Below the pieces are notes generated by a model, which worked only from the letters and a program-made list of their open reading frames with translations, had not been told where the DNA came from and ran no database searches. Positions 1,804 to 22,469 of a stretch of 26,928 nt of DNA are shown piece after piece. A program made the position numbers and the translations under genes. The DNA is from a virus. The first letter of the stretch is position 1. Each line of letters begins with the position of its first letter. The stretch covers positions 1-26,928 of the IMG/VR virus record IMGVR_UViG_3300033388_000839. The stretch is one strand, 5' to 3'.

Positions 1804-1876
1804 CGCAGGGTAGAGAAGTGGTTAACTCGTGGGGTTCATTACCCTAAGATCGGGGGTTCGAATCCCTCCCCTGCTA
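1804..1876 (+). tRNA. tRNA with CAU anticodon, initiator (fMet)-like
   Basis: A full cloverleaf folds: acceptor 1804-1810 with 1869-1875, D-arm 1813-1828, anticodon arm 1830-1846, T-arm 1852-1868 with loop TTCGAAT, discriminator A1876. The anticodon CAT is at 1837-1839. Three features match bacterial initiator tRNA: the 1-72 pair is mismatched (C-U) while the other six acceptor pairs form; the D-stem has A11-U24; the anticodon stem ends in three G-C pairs (29-31 with 39-41). G15-C48, G18 and G19 are present. Oddities are U at position 37, normally a purine, and an A13-A22 mismatch. The 3' CCA is not encoded (A73 is followed by CTA), so a host enzyme must add it. An elongator Met or Ile2 tRNA is less likely given the initiator signature. 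Confidence 0.85.
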
Positions 1877-1879
1877 CTA

Positions 1880-1907
1880 ATACCCATCTTAACAGGTGGG
1901 TATTTTT
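1880..1907 (+). terminator. Rho-independent terminator after the tRNA
   Basis: A nine-base-pair stem (ATACCCATC at 1880-1888 with GGTGGGTAT at 1895-1903, one T-G pair) closes a six-base loop and is followed by a run of T to 1907. It starts only four bases after the tRNA discriminator base. It ends the operon begun at the promoter near 574. Confidence 0.85.
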
Positions 1908-2980: not shown

Positions 2981-3217
2981 ATGGCAATCACGAACAAACA
3001 ACTAGCCTCAATAGGCTTTACAATGATTAAAGGTAATAAAACAATGGTAAGACCTGTAGGAGATGATATAATTCTTACAGCGTCTCAAGCTCATTTATAC
3101 CTTAACGGAGCTCACTTAATTAACATGGAATTTATAGACTTAGCATTTTTAACTAAGTATATAGAAAAAGTAATACAAGCAAAACGTAAAGCAGATGCCG
3201 GAGCAAAGCCTAAATAA
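2981..3217 (+). CDS. Small unknown protein before the terminase (78 aa)
   Basis: The ATG follows the previous stop by one base (TAACATG). The first half suggests short beta strands (GFTMIKGNKTMVRPV, DDIILTA), and the second half is helical (FIDLAFLTKYIEKVIQAKRK), with a lysine/alanine-rich tail. The last 23 bases overlap the terminase start in another frame, so the two are probably translationally coupled. This conserved-looking arrangement makes a packaging role plausible, and it is an alternative small-terminase candidate. No family recognised. Confidence 0.65.
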   Translation: MAITNKQLASIGFTMIKGNKTMVRPVGDDIILTASQAHLYLNGAHLINMEFIDLAFLTKYIEKVIQAKRKADAGAKPK

Positions 3218-5318
3218 ACTAGAACTATCTCCTATATTTGTTAATTCTGCACTCTTTAACGAAGAAGCTAGAAACTATCAGAAGTCTGGAGATCATGAAG
3301 ATGATAAATTTTACACATCTGCACCTCCAGGAACTGGAACACATAAAGAGTACTGGGATGAGCAAGAAAGAAGATGTAGAGAAGGATATACTGTAGGAGG
3401 TATTAGAATTACGGGAGTTCACTACTTTTATTTAAACTTCTGTAGAATTAAAGTAACCGTAAAAGAAGGTAAGTTAGAACGTAAGATATTTTCTTTCCCT
3501 AAATTTCTAGATGTAGATTATTACTTTTTTCATGAAGTAGAAAAAGCTAGAGAGAACGGAGAAGGTATTATTGTAGCTAAATCAAGACGTAAGGGATTCT
3601 CATTTAAAACAGGGGCCCTTGTAGCACATCAGTATACATTTTATAGAAACTCTATATCTATTATTGGGGCTTATCTAGAAGCTTATTCTGGAGCTACTAT
3701 GGCTATGGTATTAGAGATGTTAAACTTTAACGATCATAAGACAGACTTTGGTAAAGCTAGATTAAGAGATAAACAAGAGCATATTATATCAGGCTTTATA
3801 GAAGACGGTGTAAAGATGGGCTTTAAGAGTGAAGTATTTAGACTTACGTTTAAAGATAACTTCTCTGCAGCGATTGGAAAGACTGCCGATTTAATGCTAT
3901 TTGAAGAAGCAGGTAAATGGCCTAACCTTATTGACTCTTACGCAATTACAGCGCCTGTATTCCGAGATGGTAGTATTATGACAGGAATGCCGATCATATT
4001 TGGAACAGGGGGTGATATGGACGGAGGTTCTAATGACTTTGCTGAAATGTTCTATAGTCCAGAAACTTATTGGTTACGAGCATATGAAAACGAATGGGAT
4101 GAAGGAGGATACGGAACAAGCTGTGGTTTATTTATAGATGATATGTGGTATAAACCTGGAAAGGTAATGATTCCAGCATACCTAAAAGATTCTTATCATA
4201 AAACTGCTCCTCCTTTAGAGGAAATAGACAAGTATCAGGCTAAACACCCTGAAGATATGATTAGTGTAGATGCTGTAGATGATAACGGTAACTCACATAG
4301 ATGCGCAGCTGAGATTGCACTAGAAAGAGAAAGAGCTTCTAAAAAAGAGGGTTCTACTAAAAGGTCCTGGGAGAAGTATGTAACTCAATACCCTAAAACA
4401 CCTAGAGAAGCTTTCTTAAGAACAAGTGGTAACGTATTTCCTACAGTAGAACTTAGTGCTTGGTTAGGAGAGTTAGAAATCAACAGGAAGGCACAGGCTG
4501 CAGGTATGACAGGGGATCTATATTGGCAAGGAGAAGAAGTAAGATGGACTCCTAACTTAGAACTGTATCCAGTAGAGAAGTTTCCACACAAGCCAGATGA
4601 AGATAACTCTGGATGTGCAGTTATATGGGAACATCCTTATAGAGATGAGAATGGAAATATTCCTTATGGTATGTATATAGCAGGGACGGATCCATACGAT
4701 CAAGATAAGTCTACAACGGCTTCTTTAGGTTCTACATTTATCTATAAGACGTTTACACAATTTGATCAAACTTATAACATGATTGTAGCTGAATATACAG
4801 GAAGGCCTGATTTAGCATCTACTCATTATGAAGAAACTAGAAAGCTTTTAGAATACTATAATGCTAAGACTTTATATGAGAATCAAGTAAAGGGACTTAA
4901 GATACATTTTGAACAAAAGAAGTGTTTATATCTACTAAAAGAACAGCCTTCTATTATAGCGGATTTAGTTAAAAACTCTAAAGTGCAACGTGGATATGGT
5001 ATACACATGACTACAGGTATTAAAACTCAAGCAGAGATATATCTAAGAGATTGGTTACTAGAAAAACGTGGAGAAAAAGAAGACGGATCACCTTTAATGA
5101 ACTTACACACTATATACTCTATACCGTTATTACAAGAACTTATAGCATATGATTCTAAACAAGGTAACTTTGATAGGGCTATTGCGTTTATGGTAACTAT
5201 ACTACATTCTCATGAAAACCATAAGGTAAGAGTAGAGGAGAATAGTAACCGGCATAGAAAGCTTAACTCTGGTATTTTTGCTAATAATAGACAGTTGTTT
5301 AGAAAAGCCGGTAGATAG
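3195..5318 (+). CDS. terL: Terminase large subunit
   Basis: This is the packaging motor: an ATPase joined to a nuclease that cuts the genome and drives it through the portal. In the 707 residues, the Walker A-like loop is AKSRRKGFSF at 128-137, Walker B with catalytic glutamates is DLMLFEEAG at 232-240, and the coupling motif is IFGTGG at 268-273. The RNase H-like nuclease half begins near 490. Its likely metal-binding acids are D499 in YIAGTDPYDQ, E562 in YENQVKG, and D660 in GNFDRAIAF. The SRRKGFS form of Walker A departs from GKT but is seen in terminases of Bacteroidota phages. The start at 3195 overlaps the upstream gene by 23 bases. The gene ends with TAG, followed soon by further stops. 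Confidence 0.95.
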   Translation: MPEQSLNKLELSPIFVNSALFNEEARNYQKSGDHEDDKFYTSAPPGTGTHKEYWDEQERRCREGYTVGGIRITGVHYFYLNFCRIKVTVKEGKLERKIFSFPKFLDVDYYFFHEVEKARENGEGIIVAKSRRKGFSFKTGALVAHQYTFYRNSISIIGAYLEAYSGATMAMVLEMLNFNDHKTDFGKARLRDKQEHIISGFIEDGVKMGFKSEVFRLTFKDNFSAAIGKTADLMLFEEAGKWPNLIDSYAITAPVFRDGSIMTGMPIIFGTGGDMDGGSNDFAEMFYSPETYWLRAYENEWDEGGYGTSCGLFIDDMWYKPGKVMIPAYLKDSYHKTAPPLEEIDKYQAKHPEDMISVDAVDDNGNSHRCAAEIALERERASKKEGSTKRSWEKYVTQYPKTPREAFLRTSGNVFPTVELSAWLGELEINRKAQAAGMTGDLYWQGEEVRWTPNLELYPVEKFPHKPDEDNSGCAVIWEHPYRDENGNIPYGMYIAGTDPYDQDKSTTASLGSTFIYKTFTQFDQTYNMIVAEYTGRPDLASTHYEETRKLLEYYNAKTLYENQVKGLKIHFEQKKCLYLLKEQPSIIADLVKNSKVQRGYGIHMTTGIKTQAEIYLRDWLLEKRGEKEDGSPLMNLHTIYSIPLLQELIAYDSKQGNFDRAIAFMVTILHSHENHKVRVEENSNRHRKLNSGIFANNRQLFRKAGR

Positions 5319-5366: not shown

Positions 5367-5396
5367 CAGACAATGCAAAACATTATATAAGAATAA

Positions 5397-7775
5397 ATGG
5401 GAACAAATATAAAAGATTTACCAAGGCAAAGAATACCTAGATCTAAGAAGACTCTTAAATGGGGTAAGGCTGTTATAGATGACTTAGAAAAGTTAACTAA
5501 TACAGATTCATATAACGGAAGGTCTAGTAACTTTAGAAAGCAAGTTAACTTTGACTTGTATAACGGAAAGATCAATAAAGAAGACTTTGAATACGTTGTA
5601 AATCCATATGGGTTTAAAGAAAACGAATTCCCTGCAACACTTCAGCATTATGATATTATATCTCCTAAAGTTAACCTATTATTAGGAGAAGAAGTAAAAA
5701 GACCTTTTACTTTTAGATGTATTGCTTCAAACTCAGACGCAGTTACAGAGCTAGAAAAGAAAAAACAAGCATTTGTAATAAAAACTTATCAAGACTATAT
5801 AGAAGCATTAGTAACCGGAGAAGATGTAGAAGAAGCTGAAAAAAGAGCTAAAGACATTAACAAATACTTAAAGTATTCATTTTCAGACATAAGAGAACGT
5901 ACTGGCCAAGATATTATTAACTATCTAATGCGAGAGCAAGATTTAGTATTTAAGTTTAACAAAGGATTTAAAGATGCTATTATATCAGGTGAAGAGATTT
6001 ATTTTACAGGAATAGTATCAGGAGAACCTACAATGAGAACTTGTAATCCATTAGATATTACAGTAGTAATGGATCCAAATAGTGACTTTATAGAAGATGC
6101 AGCTGTAGTTATAGAAGAAAGATGGATGTCTTTATCTTCGATTATAGATAACTATTATACTTCATTATCAGATAAAGAAGCTAGAAGACTTGAAGCTGAT
6201 TACGGAGCTGCAGGTAATAACTTTGGAGAAGATAATACTGCATACCCAGTATCCGATATACTGATGAAAGTAGATAACGGTTCTACTAGGTCAGCTAGAA
6301 ATTCTAAAGGTAAAAGAAACCAAGACGCAGACGGTAACATTAGAGTTTTAAGATGTGAATGGAAATCACAACGTAAAGTAGGATTCTTGTACATGATGGA
6401 AGACGGTATTGAAGTAGTAGAACTTGTAGATGAAAAGTTTGAAATACCAGAAGGAGTAGCTAAAGATACTGATGGATATTACCACTTTAACGATATGAGA
6501 CTTAAATGGTATTGGATATCTGAGTATTGGGAAGGTACTAAGATTGGTAAAGATATTTATGTAGATATACAGCCTAAACAAAATCAAAGAAGATCATTAG
6601 ATAATCCATCTAACTGTAAATCAGGATACACAGGGCTTATCTATAACGCTAGAAACTCTGAGTCAGTTTCATTAATAGATAGAATGAAGCCTTATCAATA
6701 TCTATATAATATTATATTCTATAGATTAGAACTAGCACTAGCTAAGAGTAAAGGTAAAGTAGCATTAATGGATGTTGCGCAGATACCTGGATCAGAAGGA
6801 TGGGATGTAGATAAATGGATGTATTACTTAGATGCAATGGGAATAATGTTTATTAATTCTGCTGAAGAAGGTAGAAATGGACAGACTTCTAACTTTAATC
6901 AATTCCAGTCTATTGATTTAACTATGGGTAACTACATACAAACACACATAGCTTTACTGGGACAAATAGAAGATAAAATAGGACAACTATCCGGAGTAAG
7001 TAGACAACGTGAGGGTCAAACTATGGCTTCTGAACTTGTAGGTAACGTAGAAAGATCTATATCACAATCCTCACACATTACAGAAATATGGTTCTACCAA
7101 CATAATGAAGTTAAACGAAGAGCTATAGAATCTTTAGTAGATGTTGCTAGAATAGCATGGAGAAACGGTAAAAAGATTAACTATGTAACTGATGATCTTG
7201 GAAGAGCGTTATTAAGTATAGATGGTACAGAGTTTGCCAATACTCAATATGGAGTACATGTAGGAAATTCAGCTAAAGATAATATGGCTTTAGAAACAGC
7301 TAAGCAGTTATTACAAACAGCTATTCAGTCTGATAAAGTTTCTTTATCTGAAGCAGTAACAGTTTTACAATCTGAATCTTTATCTGACATTAGAGTAGCA
7401 TTAGAGCAAGGAGAACAAGAACAACAGCAAAGAGTACAACAAGCTCAAGAATCTCAACAGAAATCTGCAGAAGCTATAAACCAAGCAATGCTACAAGATA
7501 AACAAGCTGATCGAGATTTACAAAGAGAGAAAAACATTAGAGATAATGAAACTAAATTACAAATAGCGTTTAAACCTGCAGATGCAGAAGTCCAGGATGA
7601 TTCATTAGAAATGGAAAGACTTAATTCAGCTAATCAACAGCATAGAGATAAGATGAATTTAGAAAGAGAAAAGCAAGCTGAAGTATCTAGAAAAAACCAA
7701 GCAGATCTTGAGTTAAAGCGTAGAGATTTAGAAATAAAGAAAAAAGCTGCAAATAATAAACCAAAAAGTACTTAA
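5397..7775 (+). CDS. Portal protein
   Basis: The portal forms the ring at the capsid vertex through which the terminase pumps DNA and to which the tail attaches. The 792-residue product lies directly after the large terminase and before the scaffold and capsid genes, as is usual. The N-terminal region (LQHYDIISPKVNLLLGEE, residues about 81-98) resembles the portal wing/clip start of large Bacteroidota-phage portals. A long helix-rich middle (about 450-600) contains the conserved-looking LSGVSRQREGQTMASELVGN. The last 110 residues are a glutamine- and charge-rich coiled coil (QQQRVQQAQESQQKSAEA) that probably forms the barrel lying inside the capsid. It is preceded by a 78-base leader with a possible promoter. 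Confidence 0.85.
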   Translation: MGTNIKDLPRQRIPRSKKTLKWGKAVIDDLEKLTNTDSYNGRSSNFRKQVNFDLYNGKINKEDFEYVVNPYGFKENEFPATLQHYDIISPKVNLLLGEEVKRPFTFRCIASNSDAVTELEKKKQAFVIKTYQDYIEALVTGEDVEEAEKRAKDINKYLKYSFSDIRERTGQDIINYLMREQDLVFKFNKGFKDAIISGEEIYFTGIVSGEPTMRTCNPLDITVVMDPNSDFIEDAAVVIEERWMSLSSIIDNYYTSLSDKEARRLEADYGAAGNNFGEDNTAYPVSDILMKVDNGSTRSARNSKGKRNQDADGNIRVLRCEWKSQRKVGFLYMMEDGIEVVELVDEKFEIPEGVAKDTDGYYHFNDMRLKWYWISEYWEGTKIGKDIYVDIQPKQNQRRSLDNPSNCKSGYTGLIYNARNSESVSLIDRMKPYQYLYNIIFYRLELALAKSKGKVALMDVAQIPGSEGWDVDKWMYYLDAMGIMFINSAEEGRNGQTSNFNQFQSIDLTMGNYIQTHIALLGQIEDKIGQLSGVSRQREGQTMASELVGNVERSISQSSHITEIWFYQHNEVKRRAIESLVDVARIAWRNGKKINYVTDDLGRALLSIDGTEFANTQYGVHVGNSAKDNMALETAKQLLQTAIQSDKVSLSEAVTVLQSESLSDIRVALEQGEQEQQQRVQQAQESQQKSAEAINQAMLQDKQADRDLQREKNIRDNETKLQIAFKPADAEVQDDSLEMERLNSANQQHRDKMNLEREKQAEVSRKNQADLELKRRDLEIKKKAANNKPKST

Positions 7776-7848
7776 ATAAAAGCTATAATAAAAGTACACT
7801 AACATTAACAATTACAGATATATAAATAAAATATAATTCAATAATAAC

Positions 7849-7856
7849 TAATTTTG
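7849..7856 (+). promoter_or_regulatory. Promoter -7 box TAATTTTG, predicted leaderless start
   Basis: TAATTTTG matches TAnnTTTG and ends five bases before the ATG at 7862, in the 86-base A/T-rich gap after the portal gene. The downstream bases TACAC then ATGGAT nearly repeat those at the HU-like gene promoter. No -33 TTG lies at the usual spacing. It would drive scaffold and capsid expression. Confidence 0.45.
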
Positions 7857-7861
7857 TACAC

Positions 7862-9031
7862 ATGGATATACAAGACAATACAAGTAACGGAATCCCAATG
7901 AACATGGGAGGAGCAAGTGAGATAGATGTAACTAGCGGAGGGGGAGAAGTAATTGACCCTAAACAAATAGCTGCAGAAATTTCTACACAACCAACTGAAG
8001 ATTTATCAAAGACTTCAGCTGAAGGGGACAATACGCCTCCACAAGAAGGAGAACCTTTACAAATCATTGATAAGACTAAAGACTTAGAAGATGACGAAGA
8101 TAAAGAACCTAAACCTACAGAAGATCCTGCACCTTCTCAAAAAACTAAAGAGTCAAATACAGATTCTGGAGAAGCAGAGACTTTTAAAATACTAGGATCT
8201 CACTTTAGTGAAGAGGGAATCTTAGAAGGATATACAGATGAAATGGAAAACACTCCTGAAGCTTTTCAAGAGTTGATTACTAAGACTGTAGAGAAACAGG
8301 TAGAAAACTATAAGAATAGTTTTGAGAATCCTATGACTAAGCAATTTTTAGAGTATATTGAAAACGGAGGTCAGCCAGGTCAGTTTATGGAACTTATGTC
8401 TGGTCCAGATTATAGCAAAATTACAGTTGAAGCAGTAGAAGATAATGATACTACAGCTAAGCAAGTATTAAGAGATTACTTTACAAAGCAAGGTGAAGAC
8501 CCTGCAGAAATAGAAGAAACAATAGAAGCATTTGAAGATGCTGGACATTTAGAGAAAAGAGCTAAATCAGCTTTAGGAAAGTTACAAGCTATCCAGGGTA
8601 AAGAAAGAGAGCAAGCATTAGAAGATCAAAAAGCAGCTAAGATTAAACAAGCTGAAAATGTTGAAAAATATGTAAGCGATCTTAAAACTACTATAGACTC
8701 TAAAGACAGCATTGGAGACTTTGCAATTAATAAAAAGACAAAATCTGAGTTCTTTGATTATATAACAAAGCCTGATCCTAAAACAGGACAAACTAAGTTA
8801 TATATGGATTCACAAGATCCAGAAAAACAACTTATGATGTCTTTCTATTACTTTAATAACTTTAACTTCGATAAACTTTCTAAGAAAGCTAAGAGTGAAG
8901 CTAATAAAGATTTAGCTGCAAAGTTATCTAACTTTACAGATCCTTCTAACAAACAAACTTCTAGAAAAACAACTCCAGTAGATAAAACAGGAGGAGATAA
9001 TCTAGCAGCATTAAAAGCAATATTTAAATAG
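7862..9031 (+). CDS. Putative capsid scaffold/internal head protein
   Basis: The 389 residues are strongly hydrophilic. Residues 1-105 are acidic, rich in Pro, Thr, Ser and Gly and probably disordered. From about 110 to 330 the chain is helical with long coiled-coil stretches (LGKLQAIQGKEREQALEDQ). The C-terminus ends in a small basic helix (DNLAALKAIFK), the type of element that in other scaffolds binds the capsid protein. There is no recognisable protease motif. Its position between portal and major capsid genes is the classic scaffold position. Functional assignment is by composition and order, not sequence family. The gene has its own promoter-like box just ahead. Confidence 0.7.
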   Translation: MDIQDNTSNGIPMNMGGASEIDVTSGGGEVIDPKQIAAEISTQPTEDLSKTSAEGDNTPPQEGEPLQIIDKTKDLEDDEDKEPKPTEDPAPSQKTKESNTDSGEAETFKILGSHFSEEGILEGYTDEMENTPEAFQELITKTVEKQVENYKNSFENPMTKQFLEYIENGGQPGQFMELMSGPDYSKITVEAVEDNDTTAKQVLRDYFTKQGEDPAEIEETIEAFEDAGHLEKRAKSALGKLQAIQGKEREQALEDQKAAKIKQAENVEKYVSDLKTTIDSKDSIGDFAINKKTKSEFFDYITKPDPKTGQTKLYMDSQDPEKQLMMSFYYFNNFNFDKLSKKAKSEANKDLAAKLSNFTDPSNKQTSRKTTPVDKTGGDNLAALKAIFK

Positions 9032-9058
9032 TATTAAACAACAAATAAAAATAAATTA

Positions 9059-10504
9059 ATGAACGCAGTAAATAATTTACAATTAACAAAGACTAAGTAT
9101 CATTCTGGGTTAACTCTTCAGAACCACTTATCTCAAGCATTCTTAACAGAGCCTGAGACTGTTTCTACAATGGTAGCACGTATCTACGGTAGGGCAGGTA
9201 TGAACCCTATTCAGTATTTAACTGATGGTATGGGTAGAAAAAAAGAATTAATGAATAGAGAGTACGATTGGTACTTACAAGGAGATGATGAAAAAGCAAT
9301 CGAAGTAATTGCATTTGACGGAGGTATTACTCCAACTACTCCAGGTATCAACAGACAGCCATTCTCTATTACTTTTGCAGAAAAGCACTTCGCTAACCAA
9401 GAAGTATTAGTAGCAGATGACCGTGCATACAGAGTTAGAGTACAGGAAGATCCTTACTTTGATGGTACTGGATGGGTTTACATTGTAAAGCTAACAGGTT
9501 CTGATGATGACTTTTTCATGGATCCAAACATGGTACAGCCAGGTAGACAGTTCTCTAAAGAATACACTACTGTACCAGAAATGTCTGTAGGTGGAAACAC
9601 TACTTTCAGTTCTCCATTCCAAATGAGAAATCATTTAACTACTTTAAGAAAAGGATACAAAGTATCTAGATCTGCAGCAACTGACGTATTAGTAATTTCT
9701 TTAAAAGACCCTGAGTCTGGACAAGAGTCTACATTATGGACACGTTACGCTGAATGGGAAGCTATGGCACAGTGGTACAAAGAAATCGAAAGATCTATTT
9801 GGTATGCTACTCACTCTAACAACGCACAGGGTGTAACTGATATGGTTGGAAACAACGGATTACCAGTTTACGAAGGTGCAGGTATTAGAGAGCAAATTGC
9901 TCCAGCAAACAGACGTAACTACACTAACTTAACTGAAGACATCATTAGACAATTCTTAATTGATTTATCTTATAATGTAACTCCAGAAGCAAGTAGAGAG
10001 TTTATGTGTTTCACAGGTGAATTTGGATTCGATGAATTTGATAAAGCTTTAAGAGAAGCAGCATCTCAATTTACATTAGTAGATTCTACTTTTATTACTG
10101 GTTCAGGACAAGAATTAGGATTAGGTGGACAGTTCAAGACTTACCAAGGTCTTAACGGAACTAAAATTACACTTAAGCACTTACCATTGTATGATGATCA
10201 AGTAATTAACAGACAGTTACACTTTAAGACTGCTAGACCAATCGAATCTTACAGATTTACTATCTTAGATTTTGGAATCCACGGAGGAGAGTCTAACATT
10301 GTTAAGTGTTATAAGAAAGATTCTGAAATGGTATTATGGCATACAGCTGGTTCTATTGATCCTTACGGAAACACAGCATCTTCTGTATCTACTATGAGAT
10401 CTAACAACGAGGATGGGTACGCTGTACACATGCTTACAGAATGTGGTATTATGATTAAAAACCCACTAGCTTGTGGAGAGTTAATCTGTATTGCTACTAA
10501 ATAG
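9059..10504 (+). CDS. Major capsid protein
   Basis: The 481-residue product follows portal and scaffold genes and begins after a 27-base, very A-rich leader, the efficient-translation type in Bacteroidota. Its makeup, with an N-terminal arm (LTLQNHLSQAFLTEPE), an extended beta region rich in Phe and Gly (about 90-190), a helical spine-like segment (about 225-245) and a C-terminal beta region, is consistent with a HK97-fold capsid subunit of the size seen in crAss-like and related phages (about 480-500). Codons are more uniform than in neighbouring genes, as expected for an abundant protein. A strong hairpin lies just after the stop, separating its transcript from the next genes. No obvious protease-cleaved leader can be identified. 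Confidence 0.88.
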   Translation: MNAVNNLQLTKTKYHSGLTLQNHLSQAFLTEPETVSTMVARIYGRAGMNPIQYLTDGMGRKKELMNREYDWYLQGDDEKAIEVIAFDGGITPTTPGINRQPFSITFAEKHFANQEVLVADDRAYRVRVQEDPYFDGTGWVYIVKLTGSDDDFFMDPNMVQPGRQFSKEYTTVPEMSVGGNTTFSSPFQMRNHLTTLRKGYKVSRSAATDVLVISLKDPESGQESTLWTRYAEWEAMAQWYKEIERSIWYATHSNNAQGVTDMVGNNGLPVYEGAGIREQIAPANRRNYTNLTEDIIRQFLIDLSYNVTPEASREFMCFTGEFGFDEFDKALREAASQFTLVDSTFITGSGQELGLGGQFKTYQGLNGTKITLKHLPLYDDQVINRQLHFKTARPIESYRFTILDFGIHGGESNIVKCYKKDSEMVLWHTAGSIDPYGNTASSVSTMRSNNEDGYAVHMLTECGIMIKNPLACGELICIATK

Positions 10505-10517
10505 TACAATTAAACTT

Positions 10518-10543
10518 AAGAGGGAGAGTAACATCTCCCTCTT
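10518..10543 (+). terminator. Hairpin terminator after the major capsid gene
   Basis: A perfect ten-base-pair stem (AAGAGGGAGA at 10518-10527 with TCTCCCTCTT at 10534-10543) closes a six-base loop. The following bases TATTA give only a short T-tract, so it may terminate partially or protect the capsid mRNA's 3' end, allowing some read-through. Confidence 0.75.
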
Positions 10544-10567
10544 TATTATAAATAATATAAAAACAAC

Positions 10568-11329
10568 ATGCAAGAACAAATCATTTTAAAATCATTAAAC
10601 AGACCAAACTGGGCAGGAATGTCTAGATATATGAAATGCCACGATACTATTGTAGCTGGTGTAGACCGTAGAGGATATAAAACAGGCCTTACAGAAAAAG
10701 AAGCAAAAGAACTAGAAAAAGAACTAGGGTATGAATCAGGAACATTAGCTCCTCACTCTAAATTCTTTAAAGAGTATGCAGTAGTACTTACAGGTAAGCC
10801 GTTACATTTAGATTTAAATGTACCGCAAGATAGATTAGATTATGCACTTATCAAAGCAAGTCCTAGATGTGCTAATTCTGTAAATGAAAAACACTTATGG
10901 CCAAAAGCTGAATATGTAGTGTTTGATAAAGAAGAAGACGCTAAAAGAGAAAATGCAACTATTGATAACGAAGCAAGAGCTATTCATACTTTTACGGAAT
11001 TATCTGCTAATCAAAAAAGAAACTACTTAAAGCTATTAGGTAAAGCTGCTGGAAATATGAGCGACTCTATAGTAACTAACGTACTATTTAAGATTGCTAA
11101 AGATCAACCAACTGAGTTTAATAGAATTTCTACAATGTCTGATTTTAAAACTAGAATTATGATTTATGATTTAGTTTCTGATAAGATAATTAAAGTTAAA
11201 GGAGGACATTACTTCTATAACGAAATTAGCTTAGGGCATGGTGAAGTAGATGCTGCTCGTTATTTAGACGATCCGCACAACCAAGAACTTAAGGTTGCTT
11301 TAAAAGGCAAGCTTGGTAAAAAGAAATAG
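10568..11329 (+). CDS. Unknown virion-region protein after the capsid gene (253 aa)
   Basis: It follows an A-rich leader after the capsid terminator. The N-terminal half carries a charged helix (EKEAKELEKELGYESGT, about 43-59) and a beta-like stretch (KEYAVVLTGKPLHLDL). The C-terminal half has helices (about 140-190) and then VKGGHYFYNEISLGHGEVDAA near 208-229, a recognisable element that in other phages lies near the end of similar post-capsid proteins, although I cannot name the family. A basic tail (KGKLGKKK) ends it. It lies between capsid and connector genes, so a head-decoration, head-completion or capsid-internal role is possible. The next gene starts three bases later. Confidence 0.7.
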   Translation: MQEQIILKSLNRPNWAGMSRYMKCHDTIVAGVDRRGYKTGLTEKEAKELEKELGYESGTLAPHSKFFKEYAVVLTGKPLHLDLNVPQDRLDYALIKASPRCANSVNEKHLWPKAEYVVFDKEEDAKRENATIDNEARAIHTFTELSANQKRNYLKLLGKAAGNMSDSIVTNVLFKIAKDQPTEFNRISTMSDFKTRIMIYDLVSDKIIKVKGGHYFYNEISLGHGEVDAARYLDDPHNQELKVALKGKLGKKK

Positions 11330-11332
11330 ATA

Positions 11333-12211
11333 ATGAACGTATCTCAAATGCATAATGCAATACGAATCCTAGTGGACAAAATGGACTCACTAGGATTTGT
11401 TAATATAGAGCCTAGCGAAATTGACTTCTATTTAAATAGAGCAATGGAAAGGTTTATAAAGACAAGAGCTTTAGGACCTAATGCAGGAGGTAAAGGATTT
11501 GAGGAAACTCAAAAGAGAATGGATGATTTACGTAATGTAACTAAAAACGCCATTCTTACTCCAGACCCAGTATCTGTAGATAATAAGCCAAATGGTAGAT
11601 TTGTAACTCTACCAACTGATTTATCAGATACGTATTGGTTTTCTATAAATGAAGAAGCTAATATATTAGTGGAATCATGCAACTCTAACATAACTTCTGG
11701 GGACATTAGTACAGGTGTAACGTACTTAGTTTCTTCAGGTAGTATTATATATAACTCAGTTACTTATAACGCAGGAGAATTGTTTACAGGAGTTACAGGA
11801 GATGTAGGAGGTAGTCCATTTGAAATTAAAACATTTACAGGAACAGGAACTGTTAAAGCTACAGAGCTTAAAAGGGTAGAGGTTAAGCCTATACAACACG
11901 ATGATTATAATAAAGTAGTAAACGACCCATTTAATAAGCCAGTAGTATCTAATCAGTTTAATCAACTAAATCGTCTTCAGTTAGGAGGCAAGATGGAAAT
12001 ACTATTACCGGAAGGAAATACATTCTTAGATTATTATATAATAAGATACATTAGGAAACCGTTAGATATTTCATTAACTTCGCTAACAGATTGCGAATTA
12101 GCTGATCATACACATCAAGAGATTGTTGATATGGCTGCTTCAAGTATATTAGAAACGATTGAGTCTGGGCGTTATCAGACTAACTTAAATGAGCTTAATA
12201 AGCTTGAGTAA
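11333..12211 (+). CDS. Head-tail connector (neck) protein with inserted beta-domain
   Basis: The N-terminal 50 residues (VDKMDSLGFVNIEPSEIDFY onward) match the helical start of connector/ring proteins of Bacteroidota phages, which stack below the portal. Residues 84-117 and 178-205 (RVEVKPIQHDDYNKVVNDPF) resemble the two halves of the connector beta-core. Between them, about 118-176, lies a Gly/Thr/Ser-rich beta segment (GVTYLVSSGSIIYNSVTYNA, then GELFTGVTG) that looks like an inserted surface domain. The C-terminus (CELADHTHQEIVDMAASSIL) is helical again. The family assignment is by pattern and position. The gene starts three bases after its upstream neighbour. Confidence 0.65.
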   Translation: MNVSQMHNAIRILVDKMDSLGFVNIEPSEIDFYLNRAMERFIKTRALGPNAGGKGFEETQKRMDDLRNVTKNAILTPDPVSVDNKPNGRFVTLPTDLSDTYWFSINEEANILVESCNSNITSGDISTGVTYLVSSGSIIYNSVTYNAGELFTGVTGDVGGSPFEIKTFTGTGTVKATELKRVEVKPIQHDDYNKVVNDPFNKPVVSNQFNQLNRLQLGGKMEILLPEGNTFLDYYIIRYIRKPLDISLTSLTDCELADHTHQEIVDMAASSILETIESGRYQTNLNELNKLE

Positions 12212-12244
12212 TTTAAACAATATAAATAACCTAAATTATTAAAA

Positions 12245-13234
12245 ATGGTAAGAGACGTAGTAACACATTTATTAATTGGAGAAGATGTAGCACAAGACGC
12301 TACTAGTTTAGCAAACTTAGACGCAGGAGAAATCTTGTTTATTGATAAAGGAGGAAATCCTTTAGATAAATCAGCTTTAACAGAGTTAGCACCTAATGAG
12401 CCTTTTTATATAGCAGAAGGTAAAAAAGGAACAGCTACAAAACATATAGTTAGTCCTAGATTAACTAAGGCAAGTATTACTGCATATAGAGGATCAAGCT
12501 ATGCAGCAGAAGTTCAGCAAGTATCTTATATCGGAGATAATGGAAATACTACAGGAGATATTAACGTGTTAAATAACACTGAGTATGCTTTAACAATTTC
12601 TTTTGGATACGATAAAGACATTTATTCTCAACGTAGAAATATTAGAAGATTTAACTATACTTCTAGTGCTGCTGAAACTGTAACTGGAATTGTAAATGCT
12701 TTTGTAACTATGATGAATAAAGATAAAGACTTTGCAAGACAAGCTGTAGCTGAAGTTGAAACAGGCGGAGGCGGTAAAGGTATTAAAATTACAGGTAAAA
12801 ATTTACCAGATTCTAACACTGAAAAGCCTTTATTAGTTTCTTTTGAAATTACTTTAGAATTAGGATTTGACGCTACTGTATTATTAGATGAATTCGGATA
12901 CGATCAGTCTGTAGCACCTAAGCCAGGCGTTGGTGATTTTGATTCTATTAAAGCATTAGAAAGAAACGGATTAGGATTTACTGTAGGTCAAACTAACTTA
13001 CGTAAGTTTCCTATTGTAGGACCTGATTCTAGAGTATCTCCTACAGGTACTTATGACATGTACGTTATTGATTACTTTAACGAGCATAAAAGCGGTGAGA
13101 TTGGACTAGGAGCTACACGTAAAGCATACGGTCAGATTATAATTGCAAATAACATTGCAACTACTGTTAATAGTACTACCGGAGAATTAGAATCTAGAAT
13201 AGAAGCAGCTTCAGGGATAACTGTTAACTTGTAA
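12245..13234 (+). CDS. Putative major virion protein, possibly tail tube or decoration
   Basis: The 329-residue product follows an A-rich leader and is followed by a strong terminator, as is the capsid gene, which suggests high and separately tuned expression. It is Gly/Thr/Asn-rich and beta-dominated, with one predicted helix around 137-160 (ETVTGIVNAFVTMMNKDK) leading into AVAEVETGGGGKGIKITGK. That helix-then-strand pattern occurs in phage tail tube/sheath-type modules and is echoed in the gene at 14673. The C-terminal 70 residues (TGTYDMYVIDYFNEHKSGEI and beyond) look like a beta-domain. Whether it is tail tube, tail sheath-like or head decoration cannot be told here. Confidence 0.65.
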   Translation: MVRDVVTHLLIGEDVAQDATSLANLDAGEILFIDKGGNPLDKSALTELAPNEPFYIAEGKKGTATKHIVSPRLTKASITAYRGSSYAAEVQQVSYIGDNGNTTGDINVLNNTEYALTISFGYDKDIYSQRRNIRRFNYTSSAAETVTGIVNAFVTMMNKDKDFARQAVAEVETGGGGKGIKITGKNLPDSNTEKPLLVSFEITLELGFDATVLLDEFGYDQSVAPKPGVGDFDSIKALERNGLGFTVGQTNLRKFPIVGPDSRVSPTGTYDMYVIDYFNEHKSGEIGLGATRKAYGQIIIANNIATTVNSTTGELESRIEAASGITVNL

Positions 13235-13255
13235 AAGCTAATTAACTAAATACCC

Positions 13256-13291
13256 AAAGGGAGGACGGTCTTGAATCTTCCTCCCTTTTTT
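13256..13291 (+). terminator. Rho-independent terminator
   Basis: AAAGGGAGGA at 13256-13265 pairs perfectly with TCCTCCCTTT at 13279-13288 around a 13-base loop, and the run of six T ends at 13291. This separates the head/neck genes from the tail-fibre genes. Confidence 0.85.
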
Positions 13292-13309
13292 ATTTTAAAC
13301 TAAAAACAA

Positions 13310-13876
13310 ATGGCGTTAGAATTAAAATTTAGCATATGTATAACAGATAACTGTAAAGCAATAAACTTTAGAGATATTACTGGGATATATGATGCTACAA
13401 CAAATGCAGGCGGATGGGGAGACACAGTTAATACTACAGATGCTACAGGGGAGTCTTTAATAGTAACTAGTCCAGGAGGAACTACTTATCCTTCGTTTGA
13501 TCTAGATACTTTAGGATTTCCAACAGATAATGCGTACTTACCAAAAGAAATAAAAGCTTCAGATATAGATTCTTCATTAACATCTTTTACAGATGGATTT
13601 TGGAAGTTTACATATGTAGTAGAAACTGAAGGAGGTACATATAACCAAACAAAGACTTTCTTCTTTTACTGTAATATAAAAAAACAAGTAAATGCTTTAA
13701 TAGCAGCTTTAAGATTATCTGATTGTACGTGTGACTCTGAGAAAGTATTAAGAGCTACCCAAATGCATTCCTATTTACTAGCATTAGAATATGCAGTAGG
13801 ATTAGGAGATACTGTAAGTGCTAATGAACTATACACAGCATTACAGAGATTAATAAATTGTTCAATTTGTAAATAA
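13310..13876 (+). CDS. Unknown tail-region protein with C-terminal cysteine cluster (188 aa)
   Basis: It begins after an A-rich leader (AAACTAAAAACAAATG). The first 130 residues are a beta-rich, Gly/Thr-rich domain containing CITDNCK near the start and FFFYCNIKK at its end. The last 50 residues carry a helical, Cys-bearing domain, LSDCTCDSEK ... LINCSICK, which looks like a compact cysteine cluster able to bind metal or form disulfides. I have a general memory of similar Cys-tailed proteins beside fibre genes in Bacteroidota phages, but no named family. It is the first gene after the terminator and lies next to a collagen-like fibre, so a tail-adaptor role is plausible. Confidence 0.65.
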   Translation: MALELKFSICITDNCKAINFRDITGIYDATTNAGGWGDTVNTTDATGESLIVTSPGGTTYPSFDLDTLGFPTDNAYLPKEIKASDIDSSLTSFTDGFWKFTYVVETEGGTYNQTKTFFFYCNIKKQVNALIAALRLSDCTCDSEKVLRATQMHSYLLALEYAVGLGDTVSANELYTALQRLINCSICK

Positions 13877-13882
13877 TATATA

Positions 13883-14662
13883 ATGTGTACAAACGGATGT
13901 CAAGACCCTTATGAATTACCTACGGGACCACAAGGGCCAGCGGGAGCTGACGGAATACAAGGATTAACAGGACCTGCCGGAGCAGATGGAACTCAAGGAC
14001 CAGCAGGAACTAATGGAACTAACGGAGTTGATGGCAACGACGGAGCTAATGGAGCAGACGGTTTACAAGGTACTAGTTTTAGACAAGGAGTAGGAGTACC
14101 TTCTACATCTATTGGAAATTTAGGAGATTCATATGTAGATTTAAGTAGTGATGATTTAAGACTGTATACTAGAGGTAGTTCTTTTTGGACAGATACAGGA
14201 ATAGGCCTTAAAGGAACTAACGGAGCTGATGGATCTGATGGAGCTGATGCTACATTTAATTACATAGAAAGAGGGTTTACAGCAAGTGATGTAAGTGCTA
14301 TATTTGAAACAGATGTAATAGACAGTTATATATTCTCTAGCCCTGTAGATTCTACTCCGGGTAATGTAAATCAAGATGCAGCACGATTAAAAGTTACGTT
14401 TTCATGTAAGTCTGTATCTCTTAACGAAGGAGCTAATGCAGTATTAACTTTAAGATTATACCAAGGAAGTAATGAAGTATATTCAACACAGCAAACAGTA
14501 CTGAACGATGGAAGGATAGATATGATTTCTTTTAGTTTTATGATTGAAGATTATAAAGGGTACACACAAGAACTTATTAAAGTAACTGCTCAATCAGATA
14601 GTACTCAAGTAAATTTAGAAGTACCTTATATGATTTTAACATCTAACTCAATAACTAGCTAA
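13883..14662 (+). CDS. Collagen-like tail fibre protein (259 aa)
   Basis: Residues 15-65 are 17 uninterrupted Gly-X-Y triplets (GPQGPAGADGIQGLTGPAG and onward), and a second block of five triplets lies at 108-122. Such repeats form a triple helix, so the protein is probably a trimeric stalk. Between the blocks (66-107) is a short domain with RQGVGVPSTSIGNLGDSYVD, similar to linkers seen between collagen-like blocks in other phages. After residue 123 a beta-rich C-terminal globule (about 135 residues) follows, a likely receptor-binding or trimerising tip. The N-terminus has CTNGC, a possible disulfide or metal site. Its neighbours are tail-fibre proteins. Confidence 0.85.
   Translation: MCTNGCQDPYELPTGPQGPAGADGIQGLTGPAGADGTQGPAGTNGTNGVDGNDGANGADGLQGTSFRQGVGVPSTSIGNLGDSYVDLSSDDLRLYTRGSSFWTDTGIGLKGTNGADGSDGADATFNYIERGFTASDVSAIFETDVIDSYIFSSPVDSTPGNVNQDAARLKVTFSCKSVSLNEGANAVLTLRLYQGSNEVYSTQQTVLNDGRIDMISFSFMIEDYKGYTQELIKVTAQSDSTQVNLEVPYMILTSNSITS
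13925..14077 (+). repeat. Collagen-like Gly-X-Y repeat block
   Basis: Seventeen consecutive nine-base codon triplets, each starting with a glycine codon (mostly GGA), encode residues 15-65 of the fibre protein. Both X and Y positions vary among P, A, D, T, N, Q, L, V and I. A second set of five triplets lies at 14204-14248. Confidence 0.9.
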
Positions 14663-14672
14663 AATTAAACTA

Positions 14673-15287
14673 ATGAATTTACCAATATACAACACAGATG
14701 ACTTAAATGTAAGAAAAGCTGTAGCAGCTAGTGGTATTGTAAAAAAGGCAGTAGGATTAGCGAAACATTCTAAAGCAGGTTCAGTAAACATTAAAGAACA
14801 AAAAGCTTTAGAAATGGCAGTTTTACAGTTTGAAATTATAAAAGACTATAAGATACTTGCGACTTCTGCAATAGGAATAATCACTCCTTTAGGTAATTCT
14901 GGAGCAGATACAACTACAACTATATTAATAAATGGGTCAGTAGCTTCTGATCCATTTGTTGTATCTTCTAATAACCTAACTACAGCTACTAATATAGTAA
15001 ACGCTATAAACAATTTAGATAACGAATACACAGCTGTTTTAGTAGGGAATGAAGTACATATAACTAGTACAATAAAAGGAAGTAGTTATAATAATTATAG
15101 AGTTGAGTATAATTTAACAGTTCCAGGAGTAACATTTAGTGCTATAGATTTATTTGGAGGCCAAGATGGTATTGAAGAAGAAGATAATAATATAACTGAG
15201 ACTACATTAGAAGCTTTGTTTAACAACATATTTAATATTACAGGGTGTGGATATGCCCCTTTAGGAACTAAATACCGAACAGCATAA
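14673..15287 (+). CDS. Unknown tail protein with sheath/needle-like module (204 aa)
   Basis: The first 65 residues are helical (EQKALEMAVLQFEIIKDYK). Residues 75-165 are beta-rich: TTTTILINGSVASDPFVVSS, then TNIVNAINNLD, then EYTAVLVGNEVHITSTIKG. This order (small beta sheet, IVNAINN-type helix, then V-x-ITxxxxGSxYNNY strand) is the recurring module of phage tail-sheath and fibre-associated proteins. The C-terminus (AIDLFGGQDGIEEEDNNITE ... CGYAPLGTKY) is acidic. A comparable helix-strand pattern occurs in the gene at 12245. The ATG is ten bases after the previous stop, and the gene ends by a TAATG overlap with the next one. Exact function unknown. Confidence 0.6.
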   Translation: MNLPIYNTDDLNVRKAVAASGIVKKAVGLAKHSKAGSVNIKEQKALEMAVLQFEIIKDYKILATSAIGIITPLGNSGADTTTTILINGSVASDPFVVSSNNLTTATNIVNAINNLDNEYTAVLVGNEVHITSTIKGSSYNNYRVEYNLTVPGVTFSAIDLFGGQDGIEEEDNNITETTLEALFNNIFNITGCGYAPLGTKYRTA

Positions 15288-16672
15288 TGGCAGAATTAAA
15301 TAACATAAAAAACTTACTTTTACCGGCTATAGGTAACTATAAAAAAGCTTATAATAATTATCCTAAAATAGATGATATAGATAAAGTTACAAAGCTTTTA
15401 TATAATGATTTAGTAAAACTTAATAATGATATAGAAAGTGAAATTACTTTAACACCTGAACAAATAGAAACTTTAAAATACTTTGTTTACAATCCTGTAA
15501 CAGATAAACTTGAAGCCGCTAAAGCATTAGTAACAACCCTTTCATCTTTATTTTTAGGTGAACAGCATGCTATGCAGTCAGGAGGAGAGAATGTATTTTT
15601 TACAAACCAAGTCTCTAAGACTACTTACTATCCTATGTGGGGCGGTCTTAAAGATATGAATATTCTAGAAAATAGAAGCCAAGACGGTATAATAAAACCA
15701 AGCGGCAGGAATTATTTTGGATACGGAGAATTTGAACTTAACGGGGTTTTAGGGACAGGAGTAACAGATTGTTCTGATATTGTAACAATTCCACAAAATA
15801 CTTCTGGTATTGGAGCAGAAATAGTATTTGAAGAAAGAATACTACCTGAAGAAACAGTTTACTATGAAGTTTGGTGGGGTACAGATGACGCAGGAGTGCA
15901 GGCGTTTGAAGATAAAAAAAGAGGATTAGATATCCAACCTGGAGACTTAGTAGATTGGATATACACACATCCTTTAGAATCTAAAACAGGGCAGGTTGTT
16001 TTAGCACGTTTAAGAGTAGAAGGTACAGATGGTAATTTTAGAGTACTACAGTGTAGAAAATCAGATACAGGCAAACCTTATTTTAAACTAAAAGCTTTTG
16101 GATTTACAGATGATAATTTAGCATTTGAAGGGGATACTTCTACTTTTATTGGATGGCAAGATTTTGCAGACTCTAATACTTCTGAAGCTAGTCCTATAAT
16201 ACAACCTACTGTTAATGGAGGAGAAGTAGCATTAACAAATAACAATAACGATACTTTAACTGACGGTAATACTTCTGTAAACGCAGAGACATCTATTACA
16301 GGACTAAATGATTTATGGAATACTACTACAAATACTTTTGATTTTGCAGGTACAGGTATAGAAAAGAATGACTTACTTTCTTTAAGAATACACTTAAACA
16401 TAGCTGCTTCTATTATTGCTCAAGACTTTAGTCTTAGATTTGACTTCTATGATAGTCCTGGAGCAACTGGTAACTTTATATTTAGTCTTAATCAACACGT
16501 AGCTACTGAAGCTTTAAGTGCAGGTGTATTTAGAGAAAGAATAACTACTATAGATGCATTTATTGGAGAATCTATTGTAAATGGTTCAGCTAAGGTGTAT
16601 CTTGTAGGCACTAAATCATTTGAAGTAGAAGTAATTGGATTTAATATAAGAATATTTAAAATAGCAAGATAA
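15287..16672 (+). CDS. Probable tail fibre/adaptor protein (461 aa)
   Basis: The gene is coupled to its neighbours by TAATG at both ends. Residues 1-90 are helical and charged (LPAIGNYKKAYNNYPKIDDI), probably a coiled attachment region. From about 90 the chain is beta-rich with Trp, Gly and Asn. Recognisable points are GGENVFFTNQVSKTTYYPMW (99-118), WWGTDDAGVQAFED, and a C-terminal jelly-roll-like domain from about 330 (TTTNTFDFAGTGIEKNDLL and beyond). This fits a tail-fibre or baseplate-associated protein, since it is placed between known fibre genes, but no family is recognised. No chaperone or enzymatic motif is visible. Confidence 0.65.
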   Translation: MAELNNIKNLLLPAIGNYKKAYNNYPKIDDIDKVTKLLYNDLVKLNNDIESEITLTPEQIETLKYFVYNPVTDKLEAAKALVTTLSSLFLGEQHAMQSGGENVFFTNQVSKTTYYPMWGGLKDMNILENRSQDGIIKPSGRNYFGYGEFELNGVLGTGVTDCSDIVTIPQNTSGIGAEIVFEERILPEETVYYEVWWGTDDAGVQAFEDKKRGLDIQPGDLVDWIYTHPLESKTGQVVLARLRVEGTDGNFRVLQCRKSDTGKPYFKLKAFGFTDDNLAFEGDTSTFIGWQDFADSNTSEASPIIQPTVNGGEVALTNNNNDTLTDGNTSVNAETSITGLNDLWNTTTNTFDFAGTGIEKNDLLSLRIHLNIAASIIAQDFSLRFDFYDSPGATGNFIFSLNQHVATEALSAGVFRERITTIDAFIGESIVNGSAKVYLVGTKSFEVEVIGFNIRIFKIAR

Positions 16673-19600
16673 TGGCAATAAAAATTATAAAAGATCAAGC
16701 AGGTACATCAGCATTAGTAGAAGGTATTGATGTGGAACCAATACCATTAAATGCTTTTCTATGTAGTGTAACTGCAGGAAATGGAGGTATAACTATATTT
16801 AATCCAGAAGCACCAGATAACAATGGAAATCCTACTAGGATAATGAAAAACGTACCTTTTACAGAATTTGTTAAATCAGATGGTACTATTCCAGTAGATG
16901 CGAATGATTTAAAAGCAGATATAGATGCACAGCTAGAACAACCTGCTCCAACAGATGTTAATATAGGGTATAAAAGTGTATATCATGCAAATACTAATGT
17001 TCCTGACATTATTGCAGATATAAATGATTATAAAAACGGTGATTGGTTTTTTGTAGAAACTACGACAGACGAGTTTACTGTAGATTTAGGAAATGGCAAT
17101 GTAACAGTTAAAACTAATGACCAAGTAAAACTAAGTGTTATACTTGATAGTGGCGGTACTGAAACTGATAGGTATTGGACGGTTATAAGTGATAATTCTG
17201 CTACAGTAGATGATATTACAAATAGTACATTAGATAGATTTGACATACATGTTGATGGAGACTATACAGGTTCTATACAAACAGGTTCAAGTATGCAACC
17301 GTTTAGCAACATACCTGCAGCTTTAGCGGTGTCCAGCCCTAACGACTCTTTGCTGCTTAAAGGTGATTTAAGAGAGCCTAATACTACTAGTGATTTATAT
17401 GTGTTACCTCATAGTTTAAATATATACGCAACTGAAGATTGTGTAACAGGTTATGAGTCTTATAATGCAACTAATGGTACTGCATGGAAATGGGAAGGTA
17501 CTGACTATACTGCAGAATTTAAGTTTTATGATGTAAAAGTTAGACACGCAGGTAAATATGGAATACACTTAATTAAAGGAGCTAAATGGGAAGGTCGAAG
17601 ACTAGATGTCCAATTCTGTGGATGGGACGGTGATTTAACAGTATTTAACCCTTATGTACCTACTACTATTTCAGGTGCTACATATGGTTCAGATTCTACT
17701 GATCTTTCCGGATTTTATCCTAGTGCACATGCGTCTGATGGTGGTGCTATTAGAATAGAAGAATTTACAAGAGAGCTAGATGTTGCGCATACAATTACAA
17801 ACAACCTTAGAGCATTACGACTTCAAGACTGTGGTGTAGGAGGTAACGGGTTTCAAACTCGTAACAGAATATACGGTAATATTGAAAGTGGACTTTATTA
17901 TGCACTAGGTACTACGTTTTATGGATGTCAAAATATGACTTCTATGAAAAACTATATAGCATACAACGCTAACAATGGTGGTTTAATAGTTGGTGGTATT
18001 AATAACAAATTTGGTGCAAATGAAATACATTCTAATTGGAATGCTGGAGTATGTAACTTTGCAGGAGCTAACGTTACTATTAGAGATGCTGGTATTTACA
18101 ACAACAATAGAAGTGCTAAAAACGGTATTGGTAACAATGGAGATGCTATGGGAAGTGTTCAATACAATGACGCTTATAGTTATCTAGCTACTACGTTTAG
18201 TGTTAATCCAGATAGAAGATTCTTAATGTCTGTAACTAACACGCAGATACATAATACAGGATTAGGTAAAAACACAGAAACAACAGGTATATTCTTTGAT
18301 GTAGAATTAAGTAATTTACCTGCATCTGATAAAAACATCATTTCAATAGACAACGTTGAATTTATCGGCCAGGATGTTGCAATAGATATGAGTGCAATAG
18401 ATACGACTAATTTAACTATTGTTAAAGGAGATAACTCATACATAAATGTTAAAAACAAAGTTAAAGAGCCACTAGACGGTTACTATTATGAACTTCCATT
18501 TAGTAATCACGTAATAAGCCTTGAAGAAGCAAATTTTTCAGTAACAAATACTGGCAACGTTATTATTAAAGACGGTGTAAGTGGTACGCCACTAAATCCT
18601 TATTTTGTAAATGATCTACAAGCACTTGCACATGGCTCTGACATTAAAATAGTACTTAAGGGTACAAGAAAAATACAGTTTACAGTACCAGTATCGGGAT
18701 GTTCAATAGGAAATTCTATGGTTAATTCTGTATTAGCTTTAGCTTTAGTTCAACTTAACGACTTACTTACTAATACTGCTGGATTTGCAAGTGGAGGCAA
18801 TCCTGTTACAGATTTTTATTTAAGTGGTAATGACCTTGTAATTATTTTACAAGATGGAACGAGTTATACTGCAGATGTAACTACATTAGGAGTTGACGAA
18901 AATAAGTTTGTAGAAGATTTCGAATTAGTTGGTAGTAATTTAGTATTAACTATGAACGACGGTGTTACAACACACACTGTTAGTGTATCGAACATGATTA
19001 ACGGAAGTACTTTACCAGCTAGAGCAGAAAATTGGTATATTGCTTATGGTAATAATGCAGGAGATGAAGTTGTATATGCTAGTGTAGTTGCAGATATAAA
19101 AGCAAAACAACCTTTTTACAATGGCGATTTCTTAGAAAAAGGAGAAGAATACGTTTGGACTAATAATATATCTGGTTATTCTGTTTTAGGAATTTACACA
19201 GGCCCAGAAACAACTTCAGAAGAGGATATTGTTTTTGCAGACAATAAGTGGGCTGTTAATTTTAAATTCATTAGTTCAAAAGTATCTCCATCATCTATTG
19301 GCGTTGACGTTTCTTCAAGATATGCTAGCGGTTATGATATTACAAATAATACTGTGTTAGCTTTAAGATACGGCAATGATAACTACTTATATTTATTAGA
19401 CATTTCTAATGGAGATGAAGTTATAATTGGAAAATCTAATTTAGCTTTAGTTGGTGATTCTGTAACTATTTTTATGGGAGGTGAAAATCAACCTAACGCT
19501 AAATTCCCTGTGATGGTTAAAAGGTTTGAACAATGGGCAATTGTACATGATTATGATAACAGTGAAAACGGTGAGTGGAATGATGGTGTAGAAATTGACA

Positions 19601-21165: not shown

Positions 21166-21174
21166 GTAAATAAC

Positions 21175-21196
21175 AGGAGGGTGTAATAGCCCTCCT
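21175..21196 (+). terminator. Hairpin, weak terminator after spike gene
   Basis: AGGAGGG at 21175-21181 pairs with CCCTCCT at 21190-21196 around an eight-base loop. The tail TCTTAAT is T-poor, so termination may be incomplete and read-through to the lysis genes is likely. Confidence 0.6.
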
Positions 21197-21227
21197 TCTT
21201 AATAATTAAAAATAAATAAAATATGAA

Positions 21228-21476
21228 ATGAAAAATGAAGTAACTGAAGTACTAGAACAGGCCCCGACAGTACTACAGAAATATCCTACAATAGGACTAG
21301 GTGGGGGATTAGGTGGAGGAATACTCTACTGGATTGAAATAGCAGGGCCTATATTATCTTTTATAGGGGTTTGTTTAGGGGTTGGAATAGCCGCTATAAC
21401 ATTCTACCTTAAGATCGTGGAATTAAAACTAAAAAGAAGAAAACTAAAACAAAGAGACAAACATGAAACTAAGTAA
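21228..21476 (+). CDS. Small membrane protein, probable holin
   Basis: The 82-residue product has an acidic N-terminus, a glycine-rich segment (GLGGGLGGG, 23-31), then a long hydrophobic region at about 32-62 that spans the membrane once or as a tight hairpin. A strongly basic tail follows (LKLKRRKLKQRDKHE). This is the typical layout of small holins, and the M15 endolysin gene overlaps its end by 14 bases. The start at ATG 21228 is chosen because the ATG at 21223 gives only Met-Lys-stop. That mini-frame overlaps the start codon as ATGA. An antiholin or other membrane role is the alternative, since a second holin-like gene follows. Confidence 0.65.
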   Translation: MKNEVTEVLEQAPTVLQKYPTIGLGGGLGGGILYWIEIAGPILSFIGVCLGVGIAAITFYLKIVELKLKRRKLKQRDKHETK

Positions 21477-21954
21477 TAACTTAACATTAAAAGAAGCAAT
21501 TAAGTCGATAACTGCAATTAAAAGGGGAGTAGATAACTCCCCTAATGCAGAAGAAATAGAGAAACTAAAAGTAACAGCTGAGAAAGTATTTCAGCCTGTT
21601 AGAGACCATTTTAATATACCTATAGGTGTAAATTCTATGTTTAGATCTAAAGCTCTTAATAAAGCTATTGGAGGAGCTTCAGGTAGCCAGCATATGAAAG
21701 GAGAAGCTATAGATATTGATGCTGATAGATACGGAGGTAAAATAGAAGTATCTGGAGAAATGGTTAACTTTACCAACAAAATGATCTTTGACTTTATTAA
21801 AGATAACTTAGACTTTGATCAGCTTATATGGGAGTACGGAACTTCAGATGAACCAGATTGGGTTCACGTATCTTATAACCCTGTAGGTAATCGTAAAAGA
21901 GTATTAAAAGTAATTAGAGGAAAAGACGGAAGATCACACTATTCAATATACTAA
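21463..21954 (+). CDS. Endolysin, M15-family peptidoglycan peptidase
   Basis: The 163-residue enzyme shows the zinc-peptidase signature of the M15 family: SQHMKGEAIDID at 75-86, with H77 and D84 as metal ligands, and DWVHVS at 132-137, with H135 as the third ligand and D132 as the likely catalytic acid in D-x-x-H. The region GVNSMFRSKALNKAIGG (55-71) matches the family's SxYRxxxxN-type substrate loop. It would cleave peptide cross-links or stem peptides in the cell wall during lysis. There is no signal peptide, so it needs a holin to reach the periplasm. It overlaps the small holin-like gene by 14 bases and the 3TM holin by TAATG. Confidence 0.85.
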   Translation: MKLSNNLTLKEAIKSITAIKRGVDNSPNAEEIEKLKVTAEKVFQPVRDHFNIPIGVNSMFRSKALNKAIGGASGSQHMKGEAIDIDADRYGGKIEVSGEMVNFTNKMIFDFIKDNLDFDQLIWEYGTSDEPDWVHVSYNPVGNRKRVLKVIRGKDGRSHYSIY

Positions 21955-22463: not shown

Positions 22464-22469
22464 TATATA

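Follow-up and report, generated by a model that had tools for sequence, protein, structure and literature searches.

A U37 initiator-type tRNA in a clade of crAss-like phages and a matching base before their late start codons

A fragment of an environmental crAss-like phage carries the gene for an initiator-type tRNA in which the CAU anticodon is followed by U at position 37, and the late genes of phages that share this tRNA most often have A, the complement of U37, directly before the start codon (position -1). We consider it probable, from the agreement between these two sequence features, that U37 of the phage initiator pairs with A(-1) in late mRNAs and that late starts have thereby been switched from the host initiator to that of the phage. 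Longer contigs from outside this group of phages give mixed results, and therefore the relation between positions 37 and -1 is put forward firmly for this clade only. The question of why phages carry tRNAs is old and is usually answered by codon usage or by evasion of nucleases. In this case, one initiator-type tRNA is accompanied, across the late arm, by a matching change in the base that precedes the start codons.

The DNA analyzed (the window) is the entire 26,928-base IMG/VR record IMGVR_UViG_3300033388_000839. When searched at the DNA level against the phage collection, the window gave no close match, and its terminase and capsid proteins are less than 60% identical to those of gut crAss-like and Flavobacterium phages. 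Several other window genes have repeated or duplicated parts. The adjacent ORFs at 24965-25963 and 25942-26883 are paralogues with near-identical C-terminal parts and look like a tandem duplication, the ORF at 13883-14662 encodes a collagen-like protein with GPQGPAG repeats, and the product of 22470-23735 contains repeated SHAEG/SHSEG motifs and resembles trimeric adhesin heads. The tRNA gene and its parts are located as follows.

1804..1876, + strand: initiator-like tRNA(CAU) gene, 73 nt, CCA not encoded (ARAGORN, Rfam RF00005, conservation in 20 related contigs)
1837..1839, + strand: anticodon CAU, positions 34-36 (ARAGORN position 34)
1840..1840, + strand: U37 in every clade tRNA (the cellular Bacteroidota initiators sampled have A37)
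1879..1904, + strand: intrinsic terminator directly 3' of the tRNA, 11-pair stem and T tail (1 found, 0.3 expected)

ARAGORN reported a single tRNA in the window, tRNA-Met(CAT) at 1804-1877, and the full Rfam model RF00005 matched at 1804-1876 (55.1 bits, E 1.6e-9). Direct reading gives an acceptor end with a C1xU72 mismatch, G2:C71, C3:G70, and A73, which is followed by CTA, so that CCA is not encoded. The D stem includes A11:U24, the anticodon stem has G29G30G31:C39C40C41, and the anticodon loop reads U32 U33 C34 A35 U36 U37 A38. The first-pass annotation had described a CAU tRNA with three initiator hallmarks, and all three (C1xU72, A11:U24, and the GGG/CCC stem) are present. It had also held that classification as elongator Met or Ile2 would count against an initiator. 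Neither class fits, given that the acceptor end and D stem are of the initiator kind: elongator tRNA-Met needs a paired 1:72 and Y11:R24, and tRNA-Ile2 (CAU, lysidine) needs the elongator-type paired 1:72. The assignment of the gene as a phage initiator-type tRNA is supported, with every sequence determinant that could be assessed in its favor. Bacterial tRNA-fMet, as sampled in cellular Bacteroidota, likewise combines CAU with an unpaired or weak 1:72, G2:C71, C3:G70, A11:U24, the GGG/CCC stem, and A73. The window tRNA differs in having U37 rather than A37, in being phage-encoded, and in lacking an encoded CCA.

A terminase search yielded 54 related contigs, and a CAU tRNA lies upstream of the terminase gene in 20 of them, in most cases as the sole tRNA found. 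Because of these homologues, the window tRNA is not a chance occurrence. Conservation was counted over 19 distinct tRNA sequences (window included), whose stems are retained with compensatory changes. All 19 have U37, and positions 33-37 (UCAUU) are invariant, in relatives that share about 55-82% terminase identity with the window. The 1:72 position is unpaired in 18 of the 19 (U:A in one), G2:C71 occurs in 19 and C3:G70 in 18, and A11:U24 is found in 16 (U:A in three). Few of them have the strict GGG/CCC stem; U.G or G.U is frequent at 31:39, and among the three pairs 29-31:39-41 only 30:40 (G30:C40) is clade-invariant. U37, the oddest feature of the clade tRNA, is thus also among its most conserved. 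One close relative (L002 6205-6674, L010 6205-6674) carries five extra tRNAs (Gln, Thr, His, Phe, and Arg) beside the initiator-like tRNA, and none of these occurs in the window.

The terminase gene served as the landmark for the late arm of the window, whose start codons have the following context.

3195..5318, + strand: terminase large subunit gene (phrog_6681, E 1.1e-134), the landmark for the late arm
5396..5399, + strand: portal gene start, A(-1)ATG (phrog_6547)
9058..9061, + strand: major capsid gene start, A(-1)ATG (phrog_11589)
5397..26883, + strand: late genes downstream of terminase, with A or C and never T at -1 of the called ATG starts

For all genomes, ORFs were called by one mechanical rule, and ATG starts without a nearby rival start were kept ("strict" starts). 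An overlap-free set was then made by removing strict ATG starts that overlap the upstream gene. Nine U37 phages were compared with seven control crAss-like phages that lack the tRNA. The arm opposite to the tRNA in one U37 relative (G002) carries DNA polymerase, ribonucleotide reductase, and rIIA, and the opposite strand was therefore taken as the early/replication arm; the early and late labels accordingly rest on gene content, and the start sites are predicted ones.

The 18 strict starts of the window have A13, C4, G1, and T0 at -1, with mostly A downstream of terminase and mixed bases for genes near the tRNA. Near-complete U37 relatives show A(-1) on the strand of the terminase and tRNA genes and T(-1) on the opposite one, and the major capsid gene has A(-1) in all nine U37 genomes. 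Over the overlap-free starts of these nine genomes, the -1 counts are A123, T38, C22, and G6 in the late arm versus A22 and T40 in the early arm, and the controls have A23 and T61 (late) and A24 and T57 (early). The use of A versus T in U37 late arms differs both from that in control late arms (OR 8.6, p 2e-13) and from that in the early arms of the same genomes (OR 5.9, p 2e-8); no difference was found between U37 early arms and controls (p 0.48) or between control late and early arms (p 0.86), and all of these gene-level p values overstate certainty because related genomes and orthologues make the gene counts non-independent. When each genome is treated as one observation, late-arm A/(A+T) at -1 ranges from 0.63 to 1.0 in the nine U37 phages and from 0.14 to 0.40 in the seven controls, with no overlap (p 5e-4). 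Furthermore, the per-position chi-square for U37 late arms versus controls is 59 at -1 and at most 15 at any other upstream position. Position +5 also differs in this comparison, which would fit a frequent alanine second codon, and within U37 phages some positions besides -1 also distinguish the early arm from the late arm.

Three other sources of the shift were considered and set aside. Coupling through TAATG, which is common in the U37 late arm, is rejected as the cause because the shift persists after overlapping starts are removed. An artefact of start calling or composition is rejected because the identical caller yields T(-1) in the controls and in the early arm. Pairing of position 38 with -2 is rejected as a main factor because the controls also have frequent T(-2), and because T(-2) persists, with few C, in the G38 member (L044/G007).

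In U37 phages, the base complementary to position 37 is thus enriched at -1 as A(-1) in late genes, and T(-1) prevails in controls and early genes. This distribution leads us to propose a switch of late starts from the host initiator to the phage initiator. The phage tRNA would be charged with Met by the host MetRS (CAU, A73) and formylated by virtue of the open 1:72, G2:C71, C3:G70, and A11:U24. In the 30S P site, its anticodon would pair with AUG, and U37 would form an extra pair with A at mRNA position -1 (AAUG). The host initiator would instead pair A37 with U(-1), and early genes, being read by that initiator, would keep U(-1). Late genes would be made after the phage tRNA accumulates, when A(-1) would favor the phage initiator and disfavor that of the host. 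The predicted outcome, in hosts that initiate without Shine-Dalgarno pairing, is a start signal that is biased toward the phage and specific to one stage of infection. Whether the U37 initiator and AAUG late starts go so far as to replace host A37/UAUG by an initiation channel that is stage-specific and partly orthogonal is a proposition to which we give even chances. The effect on translation start that the first-pass annotation had attributed to this tRNA gains support from the corresponding shift in the base that precedes late start codons.

An extended interaction of 37 with -1 in bacterial-type initiation was reportedly proposed by Esposito et al. in 2003 (EMBO J; cited in PMC9841429), with in vivo support, and is said to have involved the conserved A37 and U(-1). 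The geometry and complementarity rule considered here are the same, but with U37 and A(-1) on phage late genes. In the P site, A37 is stacked between U36 and A38, and in free tRNA it forms a triple with G29-C41 (review, PMC4611024), so that a local rearrangement would be required for 37 to pair with -1. Instead of Shine-Dalgarno pairing, Bacteroidota depend on other features, among them A at -3 and -6 (PMC6847099, PMC8710568), which would leave more room for an effect of the 37/-1 pair. Two sampled Bacteroidota chromosomes show a mild preference for T(-1). Should U37 indeed pair with A(-1), these phages would provide natural evidence that initiator position 37 reads the -1 base in vivo, and an example of a virus that shifts protein synthesis to late genes in a phylum without Shine-Dalgarno pairing. 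The same arrangement points to a simple way of designing a start signal that is partly separate.

An unlikely but not negligible alternative is that U37 protects the phage initiator from a host nuclease, for example VapC, with a cleavage site in the anticodon loop of tRNA-fMet. Initiation would then survive loss of the host tRNA-fMet, and the -1 change would be a secondary adjustment to the sole surviving initiator. Anticodon-loop changes in phage tRNAs have been proposed to act against VapC, PrrC, and colicins (van den Berg et al. 2023, PMC10264068), and a change in this loop is common to those tRNAs and ours, but here the mRNA start context changes too, and nuclease evasion is hypothetical. 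Initiator-like tRNAs with U, G, or C at 37 recur in many unrelated phages, and the phages with C37 or G37 follow no clear -1 pairing rule, which suggests a second pressure on position 37. However, evasion predicts neither the -1 change nor the early/late contrast, and it leaves the invariance of U37 unexplained, since any non-A base might escape. Phages also generally avoid encoding tRNA-fMet where VapC targets tRNA-fMet (PMC10264068). Evasion may nevertheless have been the origin of the change at 37. The first-pass annotation had suggested that an abnormal U37 might affect modification or confer nuclease resistance; the abnormality stands, but the data favor a role in pairing over modification or nuclease resistance alone.

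Two further explanations do without any reading of -1 by the tRNA. That the gene just adds to the late initiator supply, with U37 as tolerated drift and A(-1) as a product of late-gene layout (TAATG stop-start overlaps and A-rich leaders), seems highly improbable to us: U37 is invariant among relatives with terminases as divergent as those above, and the -1 shift survives overlap removal and is centered on -1 relative to controls. The late arm is indeed rich in TAATG and its leaders are A-rich, but controls with similar A-rich leaders keep T(-1). A(-1) at three late genes in relatives without a detected tRNA (see below) also speaks for layout. More improbable still is some other late factor (a phage protein, a modified ribosome, or late promoter overlap) that sets A(-1) independently of the tRNA. 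The contrast does track the late arm, and several further positions separate that arm from the early one; yet the preferred A is exactly complementary to U37, just as T is to host A37, and the upstream signal relative to controls is again centered on -1.

Pairing of U37 with A(-1) can also be viewed against the nearest relatives without the tRNA. No tRNA was found in G008 (81 kb, terminase 59% identical), and none was found in G014, although the latter is an incomplete record that ends at the terminase and does not include the expected tRNA region. Late-arm A/(A+T) at -1 is 0.36 in G008 and 0.33 in G014, which are T-rich overall. Their orthologues keep A(-1) at the capsid gene and two neighboring late genes, and part of the A(-1) signal may therefore reflect the history of the lineage. 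In the terminase tree, U37 occurs in most of the main branches, whose order is not resolved. The G008 branch could plausibly have lost the tRNA, with the decay of A(-1) lagging behind.

Outside the clade, the association between 37 and -1 is weak. Over 164 distinct non-crAss loci, complementarity of -1 to position 37 exceeds that in label shuffles within GC bins (permutation p 0.007); in the same test, -4 gives p 0.03 and other positions are not significant. One phage (G231) follows the rule within a single genome. Among longer contigs, several GC-rich U37 phages have no A(-1) excess, full contigs of C37 phages show no consistent G(-1) (one is T-rich), and full contigs of G37 phages do not clearly follow the complementarity rule at -1. 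The C37 phages and several GC-rich U37 phages thus give no support to a rule that would hold across all phages.

A37 is conserved in bacterial initiator tRNAs, and the functional definition of an initiator does not require it. A pattern for U37 initiator-like tRNAs matches 102 stretches in viral contigs, and one for G or C37 matches 103; matches to an A37 pattern were too numerous for a full count. In 84,980 cellular genomes, the U37 pattern matches 86 stretches, of which 16 were called as U37 tRNAs, one being identical to a viral copy. Among 198 Bacteroidota genomes drawn, 110 match the A37 pattern and three match a non-A37 pattern, two of the latter being already known from the U37 scan. The description of U37 as abnormal is therefore borne out: sampled Bacteroidota initiators have A37, and non-A37 patterns are very rare among them. 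From this rarity in cellular genomes, we infer that initiator-like tRNAs without A37 are mainly a phage feature, present in several unrelated phages.

Our literature search on phage initiator tRNAs found no matching paper. The first-pass annotation went too far in treating such tRNAs as an exception: Stenotrophomonas phage QDWS359 (annotated tRNA-fMet), Pseudomonas phage D3, and T5-like Demerecviridae (initiator-like tRNA-Met) likewise encode tRNAs with an initiator-like acceptor end. Those checked all have A37, whereas the tRNA of the present clade has U37, is usually the sole tRNA found, and matches the late starts. Initiator-like tRNAs with G, C, or U37 recur in viral contigs of many unrelated phages (loci L274-L376 and L056-L153), often as the sole tRNA of the locus. 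On a contig of Chitinophaga sp. CF418 (L381 1992-2064), a U37 CAU tRNA is identical to that of viral locus L144, which suggests a prophage or a phage contig.
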